A stretch of DNA of 64,000 bases from a virus. Where the stretch lies: positions 62,001 to 126,000 of the IMG/VR virus record IMGVR_UViG_3300020419_000006; one strand, given 5' to 3'. Both the position numbers and the translations under genes were made by a program. The stretch's first letter is position 1. Each line of letters opens with the position of its first letter. Shown in pieces: positions 10,336-62,442 of the stretch. The notes beneath the pieces were generated by a model that was not told the origin of the DNA, did no database searches, and saw only the letters and a list, made by a program, of their open reading frames with translations.

Positions 10336-11116
10336 TGCACTCTGTAGGCAAAACCTAGAAGGAAATAAAAAGACTTGGGTTGAAGCTGCTTACAAATTAG
10401 AAGGCGGTCAGTCGAAATACCAAAACCAGAATTTTGTAGTTGGTTCACAAATAACACCATATAAGAAAGTGCAGCAAGCACTTCTCGAACTCCAGACGAG
10501 GGATAATACTCGTGTGGAAGTGGAGTATAGTCTTAAGAAAAACGAGATCAATAGACGGATGTTGTTGAGAGACTTGAATGCAACTGAAGATGACCTTGAA
10601 CAAGAACTGATACAACTAGAAATAGATAAGTCAGATTATGACAGATCTCTATTCGTAGAGAAACTAAAGACAGTCAACAAAGAAATGGATGTCTTTATAG
10701 CAGAACTTGAAGAGAATGTAGATAGATCAAAAGGTATAGAGTACTATCTTGTTACCAATGAGGAAGAAGATAGGAAGTACTGGCAGAGTAGAATGGCAAA
10801 ACAGGCTGCATGTGATATAATTGCATTTGGTCGTCTTGGTGCAGGTAACATGGATTCAATTATGAATCTACCTGAGCAAGATCAAGTCAACATCCTATCT
10901 GGTGCAGTACATCATTCTGCACTGATAGGTGCAGGTGTCCAACACATGACACAGCAAATGGAGGGTACCTGCAATGGTCTCCTCAATGGTGATAAGTTCT
11001 CACCACCACAAATTAATGGTTCGGAATTAACTGACCGCCTCCCAGAGGTGCCCACATTACCTGAAGTGAAACATGAAATCCCCAAAGAGAAAATCCGTCT
11101 TCAGTCTTCCAATTAA
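10316..11116 (+). CDS. Unknown helical coiled-coil protein
   Basis: 266 residues. Residues of roughly 55-145 form a long, highly charged helix rich in E, K, L and D that looks like a coiled coil. Then come an Ala/Gly-rich stretch (AFGRLGAGNMDS, LIGAGVQHM) and a Pro-rich tail (LPEVPTLPEVKHE). No family is recognised. It overlaps its neighbours at both ends, so it probably belongs to one operon with the U32-like/methyltransferase gene that follows. Confidence 0.65.
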   Translation: MALSDSDALCRQNLEGNKKTWVEAAYKLEGGQSKYQNQNFVVGSQITPYKKVQQALLELQTRDNTRVEVEYSLKKNEINRRMLLRDLNATEDDLEQELIQLEIDKSDYDRSLFVEKLKTVNKEMDVFIAELEENVDRSKGIEYYLVTNEEEDRKYWQSRMAKQAACDIIAFGRLGAGNMDSIMNLPEQDQVNILSGAVHHSALIGAGVQHMTQQMEGTCNGLLNGDKFSPPQINGSELTDRLPEVPTLPEVKHEIPKEKIRLQSSN

Positions 11117-12836
11117 TCCTAAGATTGATTCCAAGTATGCAGACACGGTTTTTGTACCTTGGTTGAAGACATATAAAGATTATATTAGCGACTTATATTT
11201 TACCTGTCGTATGCCACCATTCACCCAAGACTCAATGGGTGATGTATTTCAAGGTGATGTAAGGCAATTGTATTATAATGCGAAAGCAATATCAGAAGAT
11301 GCTGGTGACATACCACTGTCTGCTACATTCAATAACATATACATTAGACCAGACCTAGAAAATCTAGACCTGTTCGTAAAGAACTTTGGTCAGTTGTATG
11401 ATCAAGGTATCAAGATTGCAACCATACCACACACCAGTTGGGTTAGCACTGGTATATTACAGAAAGAATTTCCAGAACTAAAGATCAAGAATACTATACT
11501 TAGGAATGTCACAAAGGCAAATGAAGTAGTAGCTCTTGCTAAGGCAGGTTTTCATTACATCAATCTAGATAGAGATTTGATGAGAGATAAGGAAGCGTTG
11601 AAGAAGATAAAGAAAGCAAAGGAATATTGTGCTGAGATAGGTAAACCTGTAGAGTTATCCATTCTAACTAACGAGGGTTGTTGGGGTGGTTGCTCTATGA
11701 TGGATGAGCATTACCATTTTAATAATACAAGGACAGAGATGACCCCTCAGTATTTTAATGATCCTATCAGTACCCACTCTTGTTCACTATGGGATATAGA
11801 AGATAACTCTCATGCTCTAAAGTCAGCTAACCTACCTCCTTGGAGAGAGGATTGGGAAGAGTTCTTAGACCTAGGTATAGATGTATTCAAGATGCATGGT
11901 AGAGAAAATGCCATGAAACTAATGGAATCTATGCAAATGATAGAAGCATGGGCATCTGAAAATGAATTGGTAACAGGTGAATTTAAGGAGTACATGGAAG
12001 ATCTTGCAGTACCAGATAGTCCTATTGCTCTATGGAGAGAAAAGATAAAGACATGTGGTTTTGACTGTTGGGATTGTAACTATTGTGAGAACGTTGTCAA
12101 TGCACACCTCAAGAAACAAGGTAGACCAACTACAGTTGATGATTATACTCAGAGAGTATTGGATGCTATAATCGCTGGCAATACCAACACATCTAATTTT
12201 GTACCAGACAAATATAGTATTCAAGGACTGTCCTCCAATAGGATAAGACATTTCCTTAATAGTCTTTGTTCTCATGATGATGCAGTCTATCTTGAACTTG
12301 GTACCTTCATTGGTAGTACGTTCTTTGCTGCTACCATGGGTAATAAAGCAAAGTGTTTTGGTGTAGATGACTTCTCAGAACCCAATGTTAAACCTATAGT
12401 TGATCGTGGTCAGTGGACTGAGTGTGGTAATCCATACGATACCTTAGTTACTAACTGGAAAAAGTATGAGAATGGTAATGCTACATTTGTTAAAGCAAGT
12501 GTGGACGAACTAACTGAAGAAGACTTTGAAGGTAGTAAACCCAACATCTTGTTTTATGACGCAGATCATGATATGATGCAACAGATGAACAATCTTAATC
12601 ATCTGCTACCCTTCATGGATGACAAGTTCATACTTGTTGTTGACGATGCCAACTTTGATGGTGTTGTAGAGGGAGCAGTAACATGGGCTCAAGAGAACAA
12701 CTTACAGTGTTACCTTGAAAGAAAGATCCTAAGTAGTGTCATAGAAAGTCCAGTCCACTGGTGGAATGGAATTCATGTTATGGTTTTACAAAAGGACGCA
12801 AGAGTAAAAGAATACATTAGTGGGAACGGATTATGA
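11073..12836 (+). CDS. Fusion: U32-peptidase-like TIM-barrel (Cys-rich) plus class I methyltransferase-like domain
   Basis: 587 residues in two parts. Residues about 60-340 resemble the barrel of the U32/UbiU-like family: repeated beta-alpha units, a segment AGFHYINLDRDL, and cysteines C203 and C207 (NEGCWGGCSMM), C237, and a C328-x3-C332-x2-C335-x2-C338 cluster fit for an iron-sulfur centre. Residues about 400-587 resemble a SAM-dependent methyltransferase: YLELGTFIGSTF as motif I, YDADHD, and VVDDANFDG. Some U32 relatives are known to be Fe-S proteins that hydroxylate or modify RNA or quinones. The substrate here is unknown. The start overlaps the previous gene by 44 bases, but no later start lies before the conserved region. 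The stop overlaps the start of a micro-ORF (ATGA). Confidence 0.7.
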   Translation: MKSPKRKSVFSLPINPKIDSKYADTVFVPWLKTYKDYISDLYFTCRMPPFTQDSMGDVFQGDVRQLYYNAKAISEDAGDIPLSATFNNIYIRPDLENLDLFVKNFGQLYDQGIKIATIPHTSWVSTGILQKEFPELKIKNTILRNVTKANEVVALAKAGFHYINLDRDLMRDKEALKKIKKAKEYCAEIGKPVELSILTNEGCWGGCSMMDEHYHFNNTRTEMTPQYFNDPISTHSCSLWDIEDNSHALKSANLPPWREDWEEFLDLGIDVFKMHGRENAMKLMESMQMIEAWASENELVTGEFKEYMEDLAVPDSPIALWREKIKTCGFDCWDCNYCENVVNAHLKKQGRPTTVDDYTQRVLDAIIAGNTNTSNFVPDKYSIQGLSSNRIRHFLNSLCSHDDAVYLELGTFIGSTFFAATMGNKAKCFGVDDFSEPNVKPIVDRGQWTECGNPYDTLVTNWKKYENGNATFVKASVDELTEEDFEGSKPNILFYDADHDMMQQMNNLNHLLPFMDDKFILVVDDANFDGVVEGAVTWAQENNLQCYLERKILSSVIESPVHWWNGIHVMVLQKDARVKEYISGNGL

Positions 12837-12910
12837 GTGCATGGTATGTTATAGGTTGGACTATAGTTACACTATGGTTACTGACTAAGTTAGGTGTATT
12901 TAAAAAATGA
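12833..12910 (+). CDS. 25-residue single-span membrane micropeptide
   Basis: A 25-codon frame reading MSAWYVIGWTIVTLWLLTKL then a short basic end (GVFKK). Its ATG overlaps the stop of the U32-like/methyltransferase gene (ATGA), and its own TGA overlaps the ATG of the following oxygenase, again as ATGA. About 19 consecutive hydrophobic residues followed by two lysines fit one transmembrane helix with a cytoplasmic basic tail. The double coupling supports translation. The function is unknown. Confidence 0.55.
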   Translation: MSAWYVIGWTIVTLWLLTKLGVFKK

Positions 12911-13617
12911 AGGTAATAAATCCTGAGTTATTGCAAACTCATCACCCTAAGGACTGGGAGATAGAGCAATTACATATTGGCAATGCAAAGAATAGGATCA
13001 TTAAGATCAAAAATTTCTTTCAGAACCCAGAACAGGTAAGAGCATATGCACTAGCAACTGATTATGTTAATACAGTTGGTGGTCAATTTTCTAATCTACC
13101 TGGTTATGTGTGCAAGTTAGGACACATAGCAAATCAGTTCTACCCTAACTTCAAGTTCTTATTGGCAACTTACTTTGAAGCTGATAAGAAGATCATGCTT
13201 CAACCAGAGTTCTCCCACTTTACATTTCAAATGTATGAGGTACAGGAGAAATGTAGGATGTGTAGTCTAGCACCGCATACTGATGACACTCACTATGCTG
13301 CTGTTCTATCATTAAATTTCGATGAAGAGTTGATGGAGACTTCATCGGGCACTGCATTCTGGAGAAGTAAAGAGTTCAAAGAGGAGTATGTCTCCTCTGA
13401 CAAGAACTATAGAACTTCTAGACTAGCTAACAAAGTCAATGCCTTTGTTAATTTTGACCCATCACAATACAAAACTAAAGACTGGGAGAGGTATCATGTT
13501 GAGAAGCATGAATTCAATTCTCTGCTAGTATATGAAGGAAGACTATGGCATTCACCATACTTTCAACAAAGTGGATGGGATACAAACCGTCTAACCTTCA
13601 ATGCATTTCTGCACTAA
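12907..13617 (+). CDS. 2OG-Fe(II) oxygenase-like protein (DUF6445 type)
   Basis: 236 residues. The Fe-binding triad can be read as the HTD of PHTDDTHYAAV and the His of LWHSPYF, followed by the Arg of NRLTFNAF that would bind 2-oxoglutarate; the strand pattern between them fits a double-stranded beta-helix. Family members hydroxylate proteins or small molecules using O2 and 2-oxoglutarate; the substrate here is unknown. The start is ATGA-coupled to the membrane micro-ORF. This is one of six genes in the window with this type of fold. Confidence 0.75.
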   Translation: MKVINPELLQTHHPKDWEIEQLHIGNAKNRIIKIKNFFQNPEQVRAYALATDYVNTVGGQFSNLPGYVCKLGHIANQFYPNFKFLLATYFEADKKIMLQPEFSHFTFQMYEVQEKCRMCSLAPHTDDTHYAAVLSLNFDEELMETSSGTAFWRSKEFKEEYVSSDKNYRTSRLANKVNAFVNFDPSQYKTKDWERYHVEKHEFNSLLVYEGRLWHSPYFQQSGWDTNRLTFNAFLH

Positions 13618-14161: not shown

Positions 14162-14186
14162 AAAATTCACTAATAGATTCCATTTT

Positions 14187-14215
14187 ACTCGAAAAAATTT
14201 TTCGGGTATTTTTTT
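14187..14215 (+). terminator. Intrinsic terminator
   Basis: ACTCGAAAAA pairs with TTTTTCGGGT (one G.U), followed two bases later by a run of seven T. It lies 26 bases after the preceding stop and separates that unit from the protease gene. Confidence 0.65.
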
Positions 14216-14233
14216 GTCTATAGGTTTTCGAGA

Positions 14234-14240
14234 CTAAATA
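14234..14240 (+). promoter_or_regulatory. Late-promoter motif CTAAATA
   Basis: CTAAATA stands 15 bases before the GTG start of the giant protease gene and just after the terminator. A start of transcription about seven bases downstream would leave a very short leader beginning near the GAGGA at 14246-14250. Confidence 0.55.
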
Positions 14241-14255
14241 GATCTGAGGATAATA

Positions 14256-17200
14256 GTGTCAATACTAATGAAGCGAGTCATCGTCAGGGTAGCTGATAGA
14301 TATAGTTTGGATTCAGCAGTTGCAGGAATCCTAAAAACATATGGATATCTAACCTTTGTAACATCCTATAGAAGTTTTTCAATCATAACGTTCGATTGTC
14401 CAGAGAAGTATTCTACTGGCATGATCGAGAAGTTACGAGCTCTTTCGGTTGTCAAGAAAGTCTCATGGGATGAAGCAGATAAGTTTTCTCTTGATCCTGT
14501 AGATACAGGTGCGTTAACAGTTGAGACCAGTGGGTCAACCAGTTTAAATAATACTGGTGAAACAAACGCCCAATCAAATACTAGAAATTTAACAGGTAGT
14601 GGTGGTGGTACCATATTTGTAAAGGTGCAGAATATTTCTGGATCTAACTACTACACCTTCTCAGCAAGTGCAGGTGGTACATACTCAAGATATAATAACC
14701 AAACTGGTTTCCTACAAGGATCCACTTATACATTTGATCAGTCAGACCCTTCAAACGCGACTCATCCATTAAGATTTTCAGTAGACCCAGACGGACCTCA
14801 CACCTCTGGTGGTAGTCAAATGACTACAGGTGTTACTGTAACTGGTACACCAGGTCAGGCAGGTGCACAAGTAGAAATAGTTATTGGTACATCTACACCA
14901 TCTATTCTTTATTACTACTGTACTGCTCACAGTGGAATGGGACGATATGGTGCTGCTCCAGATAGGTTTGGTACAATCAACGTTCATGACTATTGGCATC
15001 TAGATAGAATTTCAAAACAAGACAGGCAATATTTAAACGGACAGTTTAGTTTCAGTCATTCAGGAGACGGTGTAGATATCTACGTTCTTGACACAGGTGT
15101 GCGTGGAGCAAGTAGACCAACAGGTAACAACGCAGCTCTTCACCCTGAGTTATACGATCCAGACTTCGTATCTGACTTGAATGGTACTTCAGAGCAACAG
15201 AACTATAGGGTATACGAGGTTACTGGATACACAAGTCCATATAGTACTAACGAAGATGACAACGGACACGGTACATATTGTGCAATTATGTCAGCTGGAA
15301 GAACGGCTGGTATAAGTAGGAACGCCAAAATCTATGCACTTAAGTGTTTTAACAGTGGGTTATCAGGTAGCTATACTGATATCCTAGGTGCTTATCAGGC
15401 AGTCATAGATCATAATGATAGTGGTAATGCCAATTATAAAGGTAATAATCGTCCAGCTGTAATCAACTCATCATTCGGACCTACCATTCCTACAGAGTCA
15501 TATCCATATGTCGAACTAAACGACAGTGGTGATGACAGTGGTACTGACGAAGAGATCCTAGATGACATCGAGGGTACTATTGCTGGTACAAAAAATCTGA
15601 TTATAGTCAGGTCAGCTGGTAACGGTTTTAAGAATTCTAGTGATGGATTTGCAGGACCTATACAAGGTAAGATGATTGCAGGTACTAGAACTGCAGGTTA
15701 TTCTGACAATACTAATGGTGGTGTCAACTATACAGATACCAACCAGAATAAGATCGCTGTTGGTGCATCTGAATATAATGACAGGTGGGCAGACTTCTCT
15801 AACTATGGTGCAGGTGTAACTACAGTAGCACCAGGTGCCAGATTGCTTACACCAGCATATGACTGGACTGCTAATACTCCATATACAAGTGCTGCAAACT
15901 ATCAGACGATTGCAGGTACATCATTCTCAGGTCCTTTAGTTGCAGGTATCATTGCTGCATGGTGTGGGAAGAATGGATATACGTTAACTACAAATAATTT
16001 ACCTGGTCTTGCTAAGACCTTTATGAGAACTGGTGGAGTCACTGGAGATATAACAAGAGGTGCAACAGCAAACTATCCTACTAATAGTATTGATGATAAA
16101 AGACTTATAGACAACCCATATGAAACTTTAGCTGGATCCTCATTCCTTGTAGTTAAGTTTGATCCTGCAGACAACTCACACTTCATAGGTAACGTAGGTA
16201 AAAAATGTCAGTTAAGAGCAACTGGATCTACTGCAGGTGCTGGTGGAACTGCTGCTTCAACATTTAATATAACAACGACTGCACCTAGTTCGTCATACTA
16301 CACCCTAAGTGGAACTGATAGAAATGGTGCTGTTAGTGGTAACAATGCAGGTGTCACTGTCTATGTTGGGGATACTATTAATTTCAATCTATCATCTGTC
16401 AGTGGTTCTCATCCATTCTATATCAAGAGTGTACAAGGAACTGGAACTGGTAATCAAGTATCCACACCAACTGCTACTGGACAAGGATCTACAGGAACCA
16501 CAACAGTATCATGGGTACCAAATACAGTAGGAACATACTACTATCAATGCTCTGCACACAATGGAATGAATGGAACTATCACAGTTTCATCTGCACCTGG
16601 TGGTAGTGGTGGAGTTACCGTTGGTGGTATAGATGTATCTGGATTAGCACAAAGTGGATGGTTAACTATTCAGGCAGAGAATGCTGTCAATAATACTATC
16701 ACGGTTCAGAACACAACTAATGCTACAGCTGGTACAACTGGTGGTGGTACTGGAAACTATCTTGCACTTGTAGATCCTGAAAGTAAAACACATGAAAGTA
16801 TTGATGGTGTTGTTTCTAGATCAGTAACTTTAAGATCTCAAACCGACACACAGGAAGCTGCAGGTACTGGTACATATACTAATGTAGTTTACTATCCATT
16901 AGATAGTGGTGTTGACTTTGACTATTCAGGAACAGGTCCTTCACTAACCACTAAGCGTGGTGCATTCTTCCCCTTTGTTGATACCAATGTAACTTGGGCA
17001 ACTGGTGCAGGTAGTATTGGTGGTCCATTTGCTAATGGTGCTTCTGTAAGTATTGACTTAGGTTTGACTGGTACAACCTTTGCATCAGAACCAACGTTTG
17101 AAGCATATACTCTCAGTGGAGATAGTATTGCAGCGTCTGGACTAGGATTAGATACTGCAACAGGTATTTTAAGTGGAACAGTTACAGCAGATTATCTTGA

Positions 17201-19757
17201 CACATCATTCAACTTCACTGTAACTGAGAACACTACAGGAAACGCACAATCATATAACTTTACAACAACTGGAACTGGTGTTCTAGTTACAATCACACAG
17301 CAACCAACTGCAACGAGTGTTGAAGCGGGTTCTGGAAACACTGCTACCTTCGGTCCTGTATCAGGTATTAGTTCTGATGGATCTACAATCCTATTCCAAT
17401 GGGAGTTCTCAAGTAACGGTGGAGCAGGTTGGTCTAACGTTGCTAACAGTGGTGGATATAGTGGAGCAACTACTAACACTCTAACTGTTGATGATGACTT
17501 TTTAAAGAATACTTATCAGTTCCGTTGTAAGATGGAAACTAGTACTTCTGTTGCACCATCTTATACTAATGCAGTTGTTCTAACAGTATTCAGAGTTATT
17601 ACTATAAGCAATCAACCAACTAATCAACAACCTATGGCACCAGCTGCTGCTACCTTTACAGTTGCTGCTAGTACTGCAGATTCTGCAGTTGTCTCATATG
17701 CTTGGGAGAAATCTGAGAGTGGAGATGGAGTAACTTACACTCCTATAACTGGAGCAACCAGTGCATCATATACTACAGATGCTACAACATATGACGCTGA
17801 CTTTGGCGACTACTATCGTTGTGTACTCTCATGTTCAGGAGCATCAAACGTAATTAGTAGTGTTGCTCAAAACTTAGTACAAAGAAGTATTAGTATAACT
17901 GCACAACCAACTAACACAACTGGTGCTGTAGGTGGTACAGAAAGTTTCGGTGTTACTGCTACTACATCTGATAATGATGCAGGTGACATCACATACCAGT
18001 GGCAAGTATCAATAACTTCTGGTGCTTCATGGTCTAATGTATCCACAGGAACTGGTGGTACAACAGCAACATATACTACTGCTACATTAACTACAACAGA
18101 AGACGGGTATCAATATCGTTGTTTACTTTCAGCAGCAGGTGCAACGCAGGTTCCATCTAATGCTGCTACATTACAAATAGAAACCGTTGCGGTAGTAGTA
18201 TCATCACAACCATCTGATGCAACAGTTGAGGAAACTCAAACAGCAACATTCACAACACTTGGTGGTGTTACTATGTCACCTGTTGGTGGTAACGCTGCAC
18301 AATCTTCATTCGAGGTAGATCAGTTTGATACGCCTAGTGGTGGAGGTGGAGGTTCTGCAGGTGGACAATCTGCTCATGAACCTAGCGTCACATATCAGTG
18401 GGAGAAATCTGATGATGGTGGTGGTGCTTGGGCATCAGTTGGTGGAGCAACCTCTGCTTCATATACAACTGCAGCGACAACATATGCTGTAGATCATAAC
18501 GATCAGTATCGTTGTGTGATCAGTGCAGTGGGTGCTTCAACTCCTGCAACAACCAATGCTGTTACCTTAACAGTTCAAAGAACATTCTCTATTACAGCAC
18601 AACCATCAAACGCTACTGCTAATGAAGGTGGAACTGCAACCTTTGCAGTAACCACATCTACAAGTAGTGGAACTACAACCTACCAGTGGGAAAGATCTGA
18701 TGATGGTGGAGTAAACTATGTGACTGTAGGTGGGGCAACCAGTGCATCATATACAACTCCAACCTTAGTATATGCTAATGATGGCAGTGATCGTTATCGT
18801 TGTGTAACATCTCTTGTTGGTTCTGCTGCAGATATAACTTCTAACTTTGCAGTATTAACTGTTTTACGTGTCATAACAATTCAAACTCAACCACAGTCAC
18901 AGGCTGTTATTGAGGGTGGCACTGCAACATTTAATATTGGAGCACAGATTACTAGTGATGTAATCTCATACCAGTGGCAGAAATCTACTGACAATGCAGT
19001 TTCATTTAATGCTGTCAATGGTGCAAATGCAGCAACTTACACAACACCTGCAACAACATATCCAACATCACCATCAGAACAATTCCGTTGTGTATTAACT
19101 AACGCAGCTGCTACCACTGTTACTTCTAGTGCTGCAACACTAACAGTCAATGAATCAGAATTTGTATCAGCACCTGCATCAGTAAGTCCATTCATTGATC
19201 CAGATACAACTAAGACTCTTTCAAGACAACCTGTCATCAGCACAGCAGCATTTGTTTCTGAGTATGCAGGATCAACTCACTTCTCTAGTTTCTGGAGAAT
19301 TAGAAGAGTTGTAGATAACGTGACAGTGTATGATACAGTTCAGACATTTGCTGGTGGTGATACTGGTAATTTAACATCATTAACTGTACCAAGTGGCACA
19401 CTTGAGTTTGATAAAGCATACTCTGTACAGGTTAAGTTCAGAGATAACTCTGGTCTAGAAAGTGCTTATACAGCAGCAGTCACTTTCACAACACCATTTG
19501 TAGATCAACCAGACATTCAGACTATCACACCAGCATTCAACCCAACAATCAATGTTGATCCAATCCAATTGAAGAGTGGTTATCAGCATTCATCTAGTGA
19601 TTGGCAGTTTGCTACTACGTCTGCATTCAGCACAATCGTTCACCAATCTCTTGGTAACTCAACAAACTTAACACAATACACACTACCAGGTGCTGTAAAC
19701 CTCAGTTCTAATACTACATATTATGTAAGAATTAGATTCAACGTTAATCCTACCTAA
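14256..19757 (+). CDS. Giant subtilisin-like (S8) protease with two cupredoxin domains and Ig-like repeats
   Basis: 1833 residues. The GTG start is preferred because GAGGA sits five bases upstream; ATG 14268 is the alternative. Residues about 5-80 look like an inhibitor-type propeptide. A first cupredoxin-like domain (about 115-240) has H170, C222, H225 and M228. A subtilisin domain has catalytic D279 (VLDTG), H338 (GHGT), N456 (SAGNG) and S556 (GTSFSGP). A second cupredoxin-like domain has H719, C765, H768 and M771. Residues about 1000-1620 are tandem Ig-like repeats (ITAQP...YQW...YRC), and the end looks fibronectin-like. The C-x2-H-x2-M spacing equals that of type 1 copper sites in amicyanin or pseudoazurin. 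It lies just before gp13, so a virion location is likely. The protease assignment is firm; copper binding is inferred. Confidence 0.85.
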   Translation: MSILMKRVIVRVADRYSLDSAVAGILKTYGYLTFVTSYRSFSIITFDCPEKYSTGMIEKLRALSVVKKVSWDEADKFSLDPVDTGALTVETSGSTSLNNTGETNAQSNTRNLTGSGGGTIFVKVQNISGSNYYTFSASAGGTYSRYNNQTGFLQGSTYTFDQSDPSNATHPLRFSVDPDGPHTSGGSQMTTGVTVTGTPGQAGAQVEIVIGTSTPSILYYYCTAHSGMGRYGAAPDRFGTINVHDYWHLDRISKQDRQYLNGQFSFSHSGDGVDIYVLDTGVRGASRPTGNNAALHPELYDPDFVSDLNGTSEQQNYRVYEVTGYTSPYSTNEDDNGHGTYCAIMSAGRTAGISRNAKIYALKCFNSGLSGSYTDILGAYQAVIDHNDSGNANYKGNNRPAVINSSFGPTIPTESYPYVELNDSGDDSGTDEEILDDIEGTIAGTKNLIIVRSAGNGFKNSSDGFAGPIQGKMIAGTRTAGYSDNTNGGVNYTDTNQNKIAVGASEYNDRWADFSNYGAGVTTVAPGARLLTPAYDWTANTPYTSAANYQTIAGTSFSGPLVAGIIAAWCGKNGYTLTTNNLPGLAKTFMRTGGVTGDITRGATANYPTNSIDDKRLIDNPYETLAGSSFLVVKFDPADNSHFIGNVGKKCQLRATGSTAGAGGTAASTFNITTTAPSSSYYTLSGTDRNGAVSGNNAGVTVYVGDTINFNLSSVSGSHPFYIKSVQGTGTGNQVSTPTATGQGSTGTTTVSWVPNTVGTYYYQCSAHNGMNGTITVSSAPGGSGGVTVGGIDVSGLAQSGWLTIQAENAVNNTITVQNTTNATAGTTGGGTGNYLALVDPESKTHESIDGVVSRSVTLRSQTDTQEAAGTGTYTNVVYYPLDSGVDFDYSGTGPSLTTKRGAFFPFVDTNVTWATGAGSIGGPFANGASVSIDLGLTGTTFASEPTFEAYTLSGDSIAASGLGLDTATGILSGTVTADYLDTSFNFTVTENTTGNAQSYNFTTTGTGVLVTITQQPTATSVEAGSGNTATFGPVSGISSDGSTILFQWEFSSNGGAGWSNVANSGGYSGATTNTLTVDDDFLKNTYQFRCKMETSTSVAPSYTNAVVLTVFRVITISNQPTNQQPMAPAAATFTVAASTADSAVVSYAWEKSESGDGVTYTPITGATSASYTTDATTYDADFGDYYRCVLSCSGASNVISSVAQNLVQRSISITAQPTNTTGAVGGTESFGVTATTSDNDAGDITYQWQVSITSGASWSNVSTGTGGTTATYTTATLTTTEDGYQYRCLLSAAGATQVPSNAATLQIETVAVVVSSQPSDATVEETQTATFTTLGGVTMSPVGGNAAQSSFEVDQFDTPSGGGGGSAGGQSAHEPSVTYQWEKSDDGGGAWASVGGATSASYTTAATTYAVDHNDQYRCVISAVGASTPATTNAVTLTVQRTFSITAQPSNATANEGGTATFAVTTSTSSGTTTYQWERSDDGGVNYVTVGGATSASYTTPTLVYANDGSDRYRCVTSLVGSAADITSNFAVLTVLRVITIQTQPQSQAVIEGGTATFNIGAQITSDVISYQWQKSTDNAVSFNAVNGANAATYTTPATTYPTSPSEQFRCVLTNAAATTVTSSAATLTVNESEFVSAPASVSPFIDPDTTKTLSRQPVISTAAFVSEYAGSTHFSSFWRIRRVVDNVTVYDTVQTFAGGDTGNLTSLTVPSGTLEFDKAYSVQVKFRDNSGLESAYTAAVTFTTPFVDQPDIQTITPAFNPTINVDPIQLKSGYQHSSSDWQFATTSAFSTIVHQSLGNSTNLTQYTLPGAVNLSSNTTYYVRIRFNVNPT

Positions 19758-19758
19758 C

Positions 19759-20574
19759 ATGGCTAAAGCTTCAACAAGGCAGGGACTTATAGATTACGCA
19801 CTACGTCAAAATGGTGCTCCAGTCCTAGAAATAAACATAGAAGATGATCAGATAGATGATCTAGTAGATGATGCTATCCAGTTTTACAATGAAAGAAATA
19901 GTGATGGTTACATCAGAACCCACGTAAAAATTAAGTGGACTGCAGACATGATTACCAACATGACTACTGATACCACTACTAGTATTGCATCTGGTACTTC
20001 TAATGCATTACCAGTCTCTTACCTAGAGCAGAATAATTTTGTTAAGATGCCAGATCATATCACTAGTGTCATTAAGGTATTCCCATTTGTATCTAAGAAC
20101 GTAACAAACCTATTTGACGTAAGGTATCAGTGGAGATTGAATGACCTCTGGGATTTAACGAACACAGAAATTTTGACCTATGAGATGGTCAACCGTAGAT
20201 TGGAAGACATATATTTCTTACTAGAAGGACAGAAACAAACTAGGTTCCAGTTGAGAGGAAACAAACTTTACTTGGATCTAGACTGGAAGACTGATGTTAA
20301 AGAAGATGATTTCTTAGTTCTAGAATGCTATCGTGCTGTAGATCCTACCGCAGATACTGATGTGTATAATGACATATGGATGAAGAGATATGTGTCTGCA
20401 TTGGTTCAAAGACAGTGGGGTGCTAACCTAATCAAGTTCCAAGGAGCACAGTTACCAGGTGGAATTACTATGAACGGAGAGTTTATATACAACGAAGGCA
20501 AAGAGAAAGTAGCAAAGTTAGAAGAAGAAATGCTCACAGTCTATGAGACTATGCCTATGGATATGATTGGCTAA
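19759..20574 (+). CDS. 13: Neck protein gp13
   Basis: 271 residues. The N-terminus (RQGLIDYALRQNGAPVLEIN) and the following acidic helix DDQIDDLVDDAIQFYNE are typical of the T4-like gp13 head-completion/neck protein, as is the central block with RLEDIYFLLEGQ. It caps the filled head and joins the tail. It is a little shorter than the T4 protein. It starts two bases after the protease stop and its own stop overlaps the next ATG, followed by gp14 and gp15 in canonical order, which makes the assignment secure. Confidence 0.9.
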   Translation: MAKASTRQGLIDYALRQNGAPVLEINIEDDQIDDLVDDAIQFYNERNSDGYIRTHVKIKWTADMITNMTTDTTTSIASGTSNALPVSYLEQNNFVKMPDHITSVIKVFPFVSKNVTNLFDVRYQWRLNDLWDLTNTEILTYEMVNRRLEDIYFLLEGQKQTRFQLRGNKLYLDLDWKTDVKEDDFLVLECYRAVDPTADTDVYNDIWMKRYVSALVQRQWGANLIKFQGAQLPGGITMNGEFIYNEGKEKVAKLEEEMLTVYETMPMDMIG

Positions 20575-60906: not shown

Positions 60907-62442
60907 ATGGCATACCAGAACATTGATAGAAGAGATTTACTAAGAGCAATCAAGGGTCGTCCTGTAAAGGAAGAGATGGAAAATATAATGGATGTTGCAG
61001 GTCAGGACTCTGTTTGGAGACATGATCCCAACATAAACTATGGTAAATGGGATGGTAAATCAACATTTGGCACTGAACCTACAGATAGTTGGATCTCTAT
61101 AAAAACTAGTGAGAGTGCTGTCAGAAGATTGATCGCACGGTATAAAAATAGTTACATAACTGCACTGAAAGGTAGTTCTAAAGACTATGATACTGGAGTT
61201 AAACCATACATCTCACTGTACGTTGGTACTCAGAAAATAAAATTCCAAGCAACAGGTAAACTTACTGACTCTACTGGTAAAGCGGTCAGTGAAGCGACCA
61301 TGACAAGGATGCAAGAACTAGGTTCTGCCTTTGTATTCAAAAGAGCTATAGCAGAGAACGCAACGTGGAAGGATGCAGAAGCATTAAAGAGCGATGACGA
61401 TACTATGAAAGGTATCAAGGATATATGGAAGAGGATTGGTAAGGTAGATGAAGTTGATGACACTTGGATAGACAATTTCTATAAGCAACAGAAGACATTG
61501 CTTGCTAAGATAGGCAAACCTGCGTTCACAGAGTTCAATCGTGACGGTGGGTTCATGGAATTTATTACTAAGATAGTCAAAGACAATTTTGATATCAGTG
61601 CTAAGGACAACTGGAACCCTGCAGACATATGGTTGATACAGGATGAGACTAAGTGGACAAATATGATAGGTGCTGCGGTAAATTCTGGTAGAAGAGGACG
61701 TTCAAAAGCAAAGTCAATTACCGAATTAAATGCTATAATGAGAATGTTATTCAAAGCTAGACAAGTGTTTGGTATTTCTCTCAAAAAGGTAGCTGCAGGA
61801 CAGGATGCACGAATACAATTTGTGAATGATAAGAGTGAGTTCTTTACCAAGTTGGATCAGTTGCATTTTGAGTATGAGAAAGCTGATTGTAAGATGGGAC
61901 AGAAGAAAGACAAGGAAGGTTCTATAACTTTATCCACTCAGGACACTAGATTGTACATAAAAGATGGTGGTAATACATATAATTTTCAAATCAAAGGCAA
62001 CAACAGCACTGGGTATTCTAATTTAAAATATGAACCCACCTCATCAGGTGCTACTGCTGCTAGATTAGGTAAAGCAACTGTGGAACTGGTAGAACAACTG
62101 TTAAAAGACTACAGTTTGAGTTTCCAAAAAAGTAATGAAGCATATCCAATGGATGCTGCCCAGTTTCTTGCCAATAAAAATGGCAAGTGGAAAGAACTGA
62201 TAGAGGTTTTGGATAAAGCAGGTGTAGATATTGATGTTCCTGATGTGGATACAGCATATAATAATTTACTATTTGTATTTGGTACAAAACCTCATGTTGC
62301 TAACTCCAAATGCCAACAGATCAAATGGTTATCTGAGTACCTATCACTCAGTGATGAAGATAGAGATCAGTTTGGAACTGACATGGTATTTCTTGCCAAA
62401 AAAGAAGGACGAAAGTACGGTGCATTTGCTAAAATATACTAA
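60907..62442 (+). CDS. Large unknown protein upstream of the KxDG gene
   Basis: 511 residues from ATG 60907; an earlier in-frame ATG (60886) lies inside the oxygenase. Mixed alpha/beta, no membrane segment. A KDNWNPADIWLIQDE motif near residue 240 is similar to segments I have seen in phage nuclease-like proteins, but I cannot assign a family. The C-terminal end is helical and includes GTKPHVANSKCQQIKW. TAATG overlap with the KxDG gene suggests joint function. Confidence 0.65.
   Translation: MAYQNIDRRDLLRAIKGRPVKEEMENIMDVAGQDSVWRHDPNINYGKWDGKSTFGTEPTDSWISIKTSESAVRRLIARYKNSYITALKGSSKDYDTGVKPYISLYVGTQKIKFQATGKLTDSTGKAVSEATMTRMQELGSAFVFKRAIAENATWKDAEALKSDDDTMKGIKDIWKRIGKVDEVDDTWIDNFYKQQKTLLAKIGKPAFTEFNRDGGFMEFITKIVKDNFDISAKDNWNPADIWLIQDETKWTNMIGAAVNSGRRGRSKAKSITELNAIMRMLFKARQVFGISLKKVAAGQDARIQFVNDKSEFFTKLDQLHFEYEKADCKMGQKKDKEGSITLSTQDTRLYIKDGGNTYNFQIKGNNSTGYSNLKYEPTSSGATAARLGKATVELVEQLLKDYSLSFQKSNEAYPMDAAQFLANKNGKWKELIEVLDKAGVDIDVPDVDTAYNNLLFVFGTKPHVANSKCQQIKWLSEYLSLSDEDRDQFGTDMVFLAKKEGRKYGAFAKIY

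Follow-up and report, generated by a model that had tools for sequence, protein, structure and literature searches.

The 64,000-nucleotide window analysed here (the whole stretch of viral DNA, positions 62,001 to 126,000 of IMG/VR record IMGVR_UViG_3300020419_000006) contains an open reading frame (ORF) that raises the question of what two domains resembling blue copper proteins are doing in a phage protease. The original prediction placed a subtilisin-like protease between two such domains at positions 14256-16620. That extent is right for the protease and the two domains, which end near 16613, but the protein itself runs on to 19757 through six Ig-like repeats. The ORF at 14256-19757 is the orthologue of PHM2_106 (T4-GC 519) of phage P-HM2 and corresponds to phrog_27200. 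Residue 5, encoded by the ATG at 14268, is the start in relatives and in the annotated P-HM2 gene, and the true residue numbering is therefore probably four lower than the one used here, which counts from the GTG of the 1833-residue ORF. With this numbering, all of the ligand and catalytic residues that had been named beforehand are found where they were said to be. The parts of the ORF are as follows.

14256..19757, + strand: whole ORF, 1833 amino acids counted from GTG, or 1829 from the more probable start, the ATG at 14268
14268..14540, + strand: N-terminal segment, residues 5-95, with a beta-alpha-beta-beta-alpha-beta-like pattern seen by eye in the alignment; possible I9-kind propeptide
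14571..15002, + strand: D1, predicted cupredoxin-like domain, residues 106-249 (AF2 model, laccase fold matches, hhalign to D2)
14763..14765, + strand: H170, predicted copper ligand 1 of D1 (motif search, conservation)
14919..14939, + strand: C222-x2-H225-x2-M228, predicted copper ligands 2-4 of D1 (motif search, conservation)
14988..16055, + strand: Peptidase S8 (subtilisin-like) catalytic domain (PF00082), with D279, H338, N456 (oxyanion) and S556
16257..16613, + strand: D2, predicted cupredoxin domain, residues 668-786 (profile against PDB, AF2 model, fold matches)
16410..16412, + strand: H719, predicted copper ligand 1 of D2 (aligns with a plastocyanin ligand His)
16548..16568, + strand: C765-x2-H768-x2-M771, predicted copper ligands 2-4 of D2 (motif search, conservation, plastocyanin alignment)
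17277..19157, + strand: six Ig-like repeats, about residues 1008-1634 (PDB Ig-like match, phrog_613, repeat starts)
19158..19754, + strand: C-terminal FN3-like region, residues 1635-1833 (by eye)

The assignment of the protease to family S8 was borne out: the Asp-His-Ser triad and the oxyanion Asn lie in S8 motifs, and the Pfam profile PF00082 (Peptidase_S8) matches residues 239-665 with 102 bits, well above its curated cut-off of 21.8. Aqualysin and proteinase K, which are among the nearest solved structures, have the same catalytic residues and core motifs. The phage protease differs from both in having cupredoxins on either side, followed by an Ig stalk, and in having no recognised I9 prodomain. 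No substitution of D279, H338, N456 or S556 was found among 127 distinct relatives (a few rows are gapped there), which suggests that the protease domain is very probably enzymatically active. We considered the N-terminal segment as an I9 propeptide, to which its pattern corresponds by eye; Pfam and PDB profile searches did not confirm this identity, giving no I9 match in residues 5-95. The S-H9-1 protease showed a single weak I9 hint, below the cut-off.

The motif C-x2-H-x2-M occurs exactly twice in the ORF, which has 14 Cys, 18 His and 12 Met in its 1833 residues, and a search for C-x2-H-x2-(M/H) in the other reading frames of the window of at least 60 amino acids returned no further occurrence. 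When the sequence was shuffled, one motif appeared in 17 of 20,000 shuffles and two motifs in none (0/20,000), ruling out a chance origin of the pair, in line with the original prediction. The spacing had been likened to that of amicyanin and pseudoazurin; this holds for amicyanin, which has the same C-x2-H-x2-M, but not for pseudoazurin, in which the ligand spacing is C-x2-H-x4-M.

Is D2 a cupredoxin beyond its motif? A profile built from 66 sequences matched copper nitrite reductases (NirK; E 4e-7), plastocyanin (5e-5) and amicyanin (2e-4) in the PDB, and when the single D2 sequence was aligned with plastocyanin, H719, C765, H768 and M771 fell on the four ligands. The AF2 model has a pLDDT of 95.9, and only copper proteins appear among the 50 PDB fold matches listed, including rusticyanin, AcoP, plastocyanin and NirK. 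The predicted fold is therefore that of a cupredoxin, as had been proposed. The Pfam profile PF00127 (Copper-bind) scores 19.3 bits on D2, under its cut-off of 21.2, and 23.3-24.7 bits on the copies in relatives; D2 is filed as a cupredoxin fold and not as a PF00127 member. Profile, plastocyanin alignment and predicted fold together firmly identify D2 as a predicted cupredoxin.

The case for D1 follows from other evidence. Its AF2 model is confident (pLDDT 89.7, pTM 0.83) and matches two-domain laccases with E about 2e-3 and moderate TM scores of 0.50-0.53, and an hhalign comparison with D2 gave E 7.6e-7 with the four ligands in register. The cupredoxin fold proposed for this domain agrees with the model and the laccase matches, but these matches reach a TM of only about 0.5, and the best PDB fold E-value belongs to SO1698, which is not a copper protein. 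Considering the confident model, the alignment to D2 and the moderate laccase matches, D1 is very probably a cupredoxin.

D2, and very probably D1, has the predicted fold of the type-1 cupredoxins of PF00127, such as amicyanin, plastocyanin and rusticyanin, and both phage domains have their His...Cys-His-Met order. The phage domains differ from these in being predicted-site modules tethered in a protease, without a known electron partner, and D2 further differs by an invariant Pro directly after the first ligand His and by scoring just under the Pfam cut-off. A His-Pro pair at the first ligand is known from multicopper oxidases.

Conservation of the ligands bears on whether these sites hold a metal. 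The D2 ligand columns rank 3-8 of 117 in conservation, across viruses and cells, and all four ligands are present in 189 viral and 74 cellular D2-type domains. The 194 distinct D1-type viral domains comprise 162 with the HCHM set, 24 with HCH-x and 8 without both the Cys and the second His. These two residues are retained or lost jointly in all rows of the tally but one, and the fourth ligand drifts, mainly to Gln, with Leu in other copies. As axial variants, Gln and Leu both occur in known type-1 copper sites (stellacyanin, fungal laccases). In some relatives (L009, L010, L045, L054 and others) a third cupredoxin-like domain was observed near residue 1425, with the sequence WCHFHTGQG and Gln in the place of the fourth ligand, like stellacyanin.

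It could be argued that the cupredoxin fold binds no metal here and, as with the Ig repeats, supplies a beta-sandwich and nothing more, the ligand residues being conserved because they help the domain pack; the domains do sit among Ig-like repeats, and some ligand-less copies persist. However, all four D2 ligands rank within the top eight columns for conservation in viruses and cells alike, and the joint disappearance of the Cys and the second His, with variation at the axial position only, fits a metal site better than packing. We therefore consider a metal-free scaffold unlikely. The ligand pattern of D1 and D2 fits a type-1-like copper site and, judging from these sequences, we infer that the His, Cys, His and Met of each domain most likely hold copper or another soft metal in a type-1-like arrangement. 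Copper loading would be unfavourable inside the host, where the cytosol is reducing.

To place the protein among its relatives, orthologues in P-HM1, P-HM2 and MED4-213 (PHM2_106 / T4-GC 519) share 66-69% identity with it over the N-terminal 776 residues. PHM2_106 matches the protein in its D1-S8-D2 order and in its place before gp13, and its ligands are intact; it is annotated as a hypothetical protein with an Ig domain noted, and the cupredoxins are absent from the annotation. An S8 peptidase numbered T4-GC518 was listed by Sullivan et al. 2010 among the genes exclusive to P-HM1 and P-HM2 (PMC3037559), where the P-HM2 record has GC 519; the S-BM3 record labels T4-GC_519 as Peptidase_S8. The S8 proteases of S-H9-1, ACG-2014i and AG-345-P14 have a single D2-type cupredoxin C-terminal to S8, and that of S-BM3 has one inserted within S8, all with C-x2-H-x2-M intact; an N-terminal D1 was not found in these four proteases. 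The S-BM3 protein (L469:4761-11440) is more than 2200 residues long and also contains a YHYH domain and Ig domains. The S8 proteases of S-WAM2, S-H38, S-CREM1 and Sf-FR1 are without a cupredoxin.

The modules are mobile and also occur outside proteases. In P-SSM2, a D2-type domain is encoded in a tail-fibre gene adjoining the S8 gene, and D1-type domains are found in P-SSM2, S-TIM5, Pelagibacter phage Mosig and Methylophilales phages. The tail-fibre and baseplate cupredoxins of P-SSM2, S-TIM5, Mosig, Melnitz, S-RIM12 and S-SZBM1_206 belong to the same subfamilies, have C-x2-H-x2-M intact where examined, and are not accompanied by a protease in the same protein. Cupredoxin domains are a general marine virion module and are not peculiar to the S8 protease.

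Nor is the pair itself fixed. A census of 84 distinct full-context family proteins found D1 and D2 both intact in 55, D1 alone in 21, and the D1 ligands lost in 8, of which four have an intact D2 and the other four have intact D2-type copies at positions farther downstream. None of the 84 proteins lacks an intact site altogether, a pattern behind which lie few independent losses. At least two lineages have a dead D1 site, and D2 is missing from the 21 members mentioned above, with the four catalytic residues intact. The D1-S8-D2 pairing is one of several arrangements and is not obligatory.

In a tree of 175 domains, the D1 domains of S8 proteins grouped in a single clade (support 99) within the tail-fibre-type domains, and D2 was placed in a separate subfamily beside marine Flavobacteria domains; collecting the domains with two separate profiles accounts for part of this two-subfamily split, and many branches are poorly resolved. 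An internal duplication of D1 to give D2 is unsupported, since the tree places them in separate subfamilies, and their positions point instead to two acquisitions. D2-type cupredoxins with up to 65% identity to the phage domain were found in marine Bacteroidetes and other MAGs (L234-L312 except L236), at least one of them in a DUF285 protein. Cellular S8-cupredoxin fusions were considered and discarded: the only candidates, two MAG contigs binned as Euryarchaeota and Gammaproteobacteria (L233, L236), have phage-like structural proteins adjoining the protease and are probably misbinned viral contigs.

Two features flank the ORF.

14185..14243, + strand: CGAAAAAATTTTTCG hairpin with T-run, then ACTAAATA (read by eye)
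19759..20574, + strand: gp13 neck protein / head-tail adaptor Ad2 (phrog_211), the next gene after the protease ORF

Read by eye, ACTAAATA upstream of the ORF resembles a T4-type late promoter (TATAAATA) and, together with the hairpin, suggests that the protease ORF is probably a separate late transcription unit. Farther upstream, window positions 11073-12836 encode a phrog_1458 protein whose C-terminal half contains a Methyltransf_24 domain and whose N-terminal half gives a weak Peptidase_U32 hint, below the cut-off, and positions 12907-13617 encode a DUF6445 protein that matches a PHROG labelled minor coat protein.

The Ig-like repeats have a PDB Ig-like match with E 9e-30 over residues 1395-1633 and match the phrog_613 head protein in five stretches. 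Synteny is conserved in P-HM2, in which the orthologue likewise lies directly before gp13, and related S8 genes stand next to genes for baseplate and fibre proteins. A D1-type tail fibre is encoded just upstream of the neck genes in Melnitz-3, a Methylophilales phage. The baseplate wedge protein SSZBM1_206 of S-SZBM1 (L480:16111-17607) has a C-terminal cupredoxin with the sequence CTIHSGM and an intact HCHM set, and was found with 9 peptides by mass spectrometry of purified S-SZBM1 virions (PMC9146016). This is direct evidence that a cupredoxin module of such a type enters a phage particle. Our search of the open-access literature found no virion proteome of a P-HM-type phage, including P-HM2. 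From synteny and by analogy with SSZBM1_206, it is plausible that the product of the protease ORF is particle-borne.

The protein might instead be a late lysis or maturation protease that is released into the host or the medium. No signal or anchor has been demonstrated, and Sullivan et al. 2010 mention the S8 peptidase of P-HM1 and P-HM2 but do not assign it to virions (PMC3037559), both of which would agree with such a role. This is nevertheless distinctly unlikely given that the Ig repeats are related to phage head and virion proteins, that the gene stands in a structural cluster before gp13, that related S8 genes adjoin baseplate and fibre genes, and that a cupredoxin-bearing protein is present in S-SZBM1 virions.

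On balance, we think it probable that the gene product is a late surface protease, carried on the virion by an Ig stalk, with putative copper-site accessory modules. The source would be a P-HM-like T4-type cyanophage, and the protein would read, in order, as an N-terminal segment (possibly a propeptide), D1, the subtilisin domain, D2, a six-Ig stalk and a C-terminal region that may attach the protease to the neck or tail. The two flanking domains would have been gained separately from a pool of cupredoxin modules in the tail fibres, baseplates and surface proteins of marine phages. With copper or another soft metal to stabilise them, they may act as compact accessory or binding domains, keeping the protease in position and aiding engagement of the host surface, a role that we infer from context. 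During adsorption, the protease may trim proteins, either on the particle or at the host envelope.

The original prediction had suggested that copper could sense redox state or gate activation, such that the oxidation state of type-1 copper in D1 and D2, or metal loading after release into seawater, would activate the protease. The architecture offers some encouragement, with D1 separating the catalytic domain from the N-terminal segment and D2 following the catalytic domain directly, as do the joining of S8 and cupredoxin in several arrangements and the intact site or sites in 84/84 full-context members. However, the same modules occur in tail fibres and baseplate proteins that have no protease, and related S8 proteases exist without them. 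As a requirement, the gate is weakened: relatives without the D1 Cys and His or without D2 keep all four catalytic residues, and it is because these lineages retain the protease that copper as an obligatory switch is unsupported. We find a copper redox gate improbable. The broadest form of the idea, in which type-1 copper centres are genuinely present in marine phage particles and copper binding or redox controls a particle-borne protease from the host cytosol via seawater to the next host, is very improbable.

For the favoured reading of a virion-borne surface protease with accessory modules, the wider significance lies in the modules. Our search of the open-access literature on cyanophages, tail fibres and baseplates found no report of cupredoxin, plastocyanin-like or blue-copper domains as virion modules. 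Marine phage particles share cupredoxin domains as a component that had so far gone without remark. The reading also offers a testable function for a gene common to P-HM1 and P-HM2, both of which infect MED4. If copper is bound by these domains, the particles of marine cyanophages would be copper proteins, which would be relevant to phage stability, to adsorption to copper-sensitive Prochlorococcus and to copper exchange via viral lysis.
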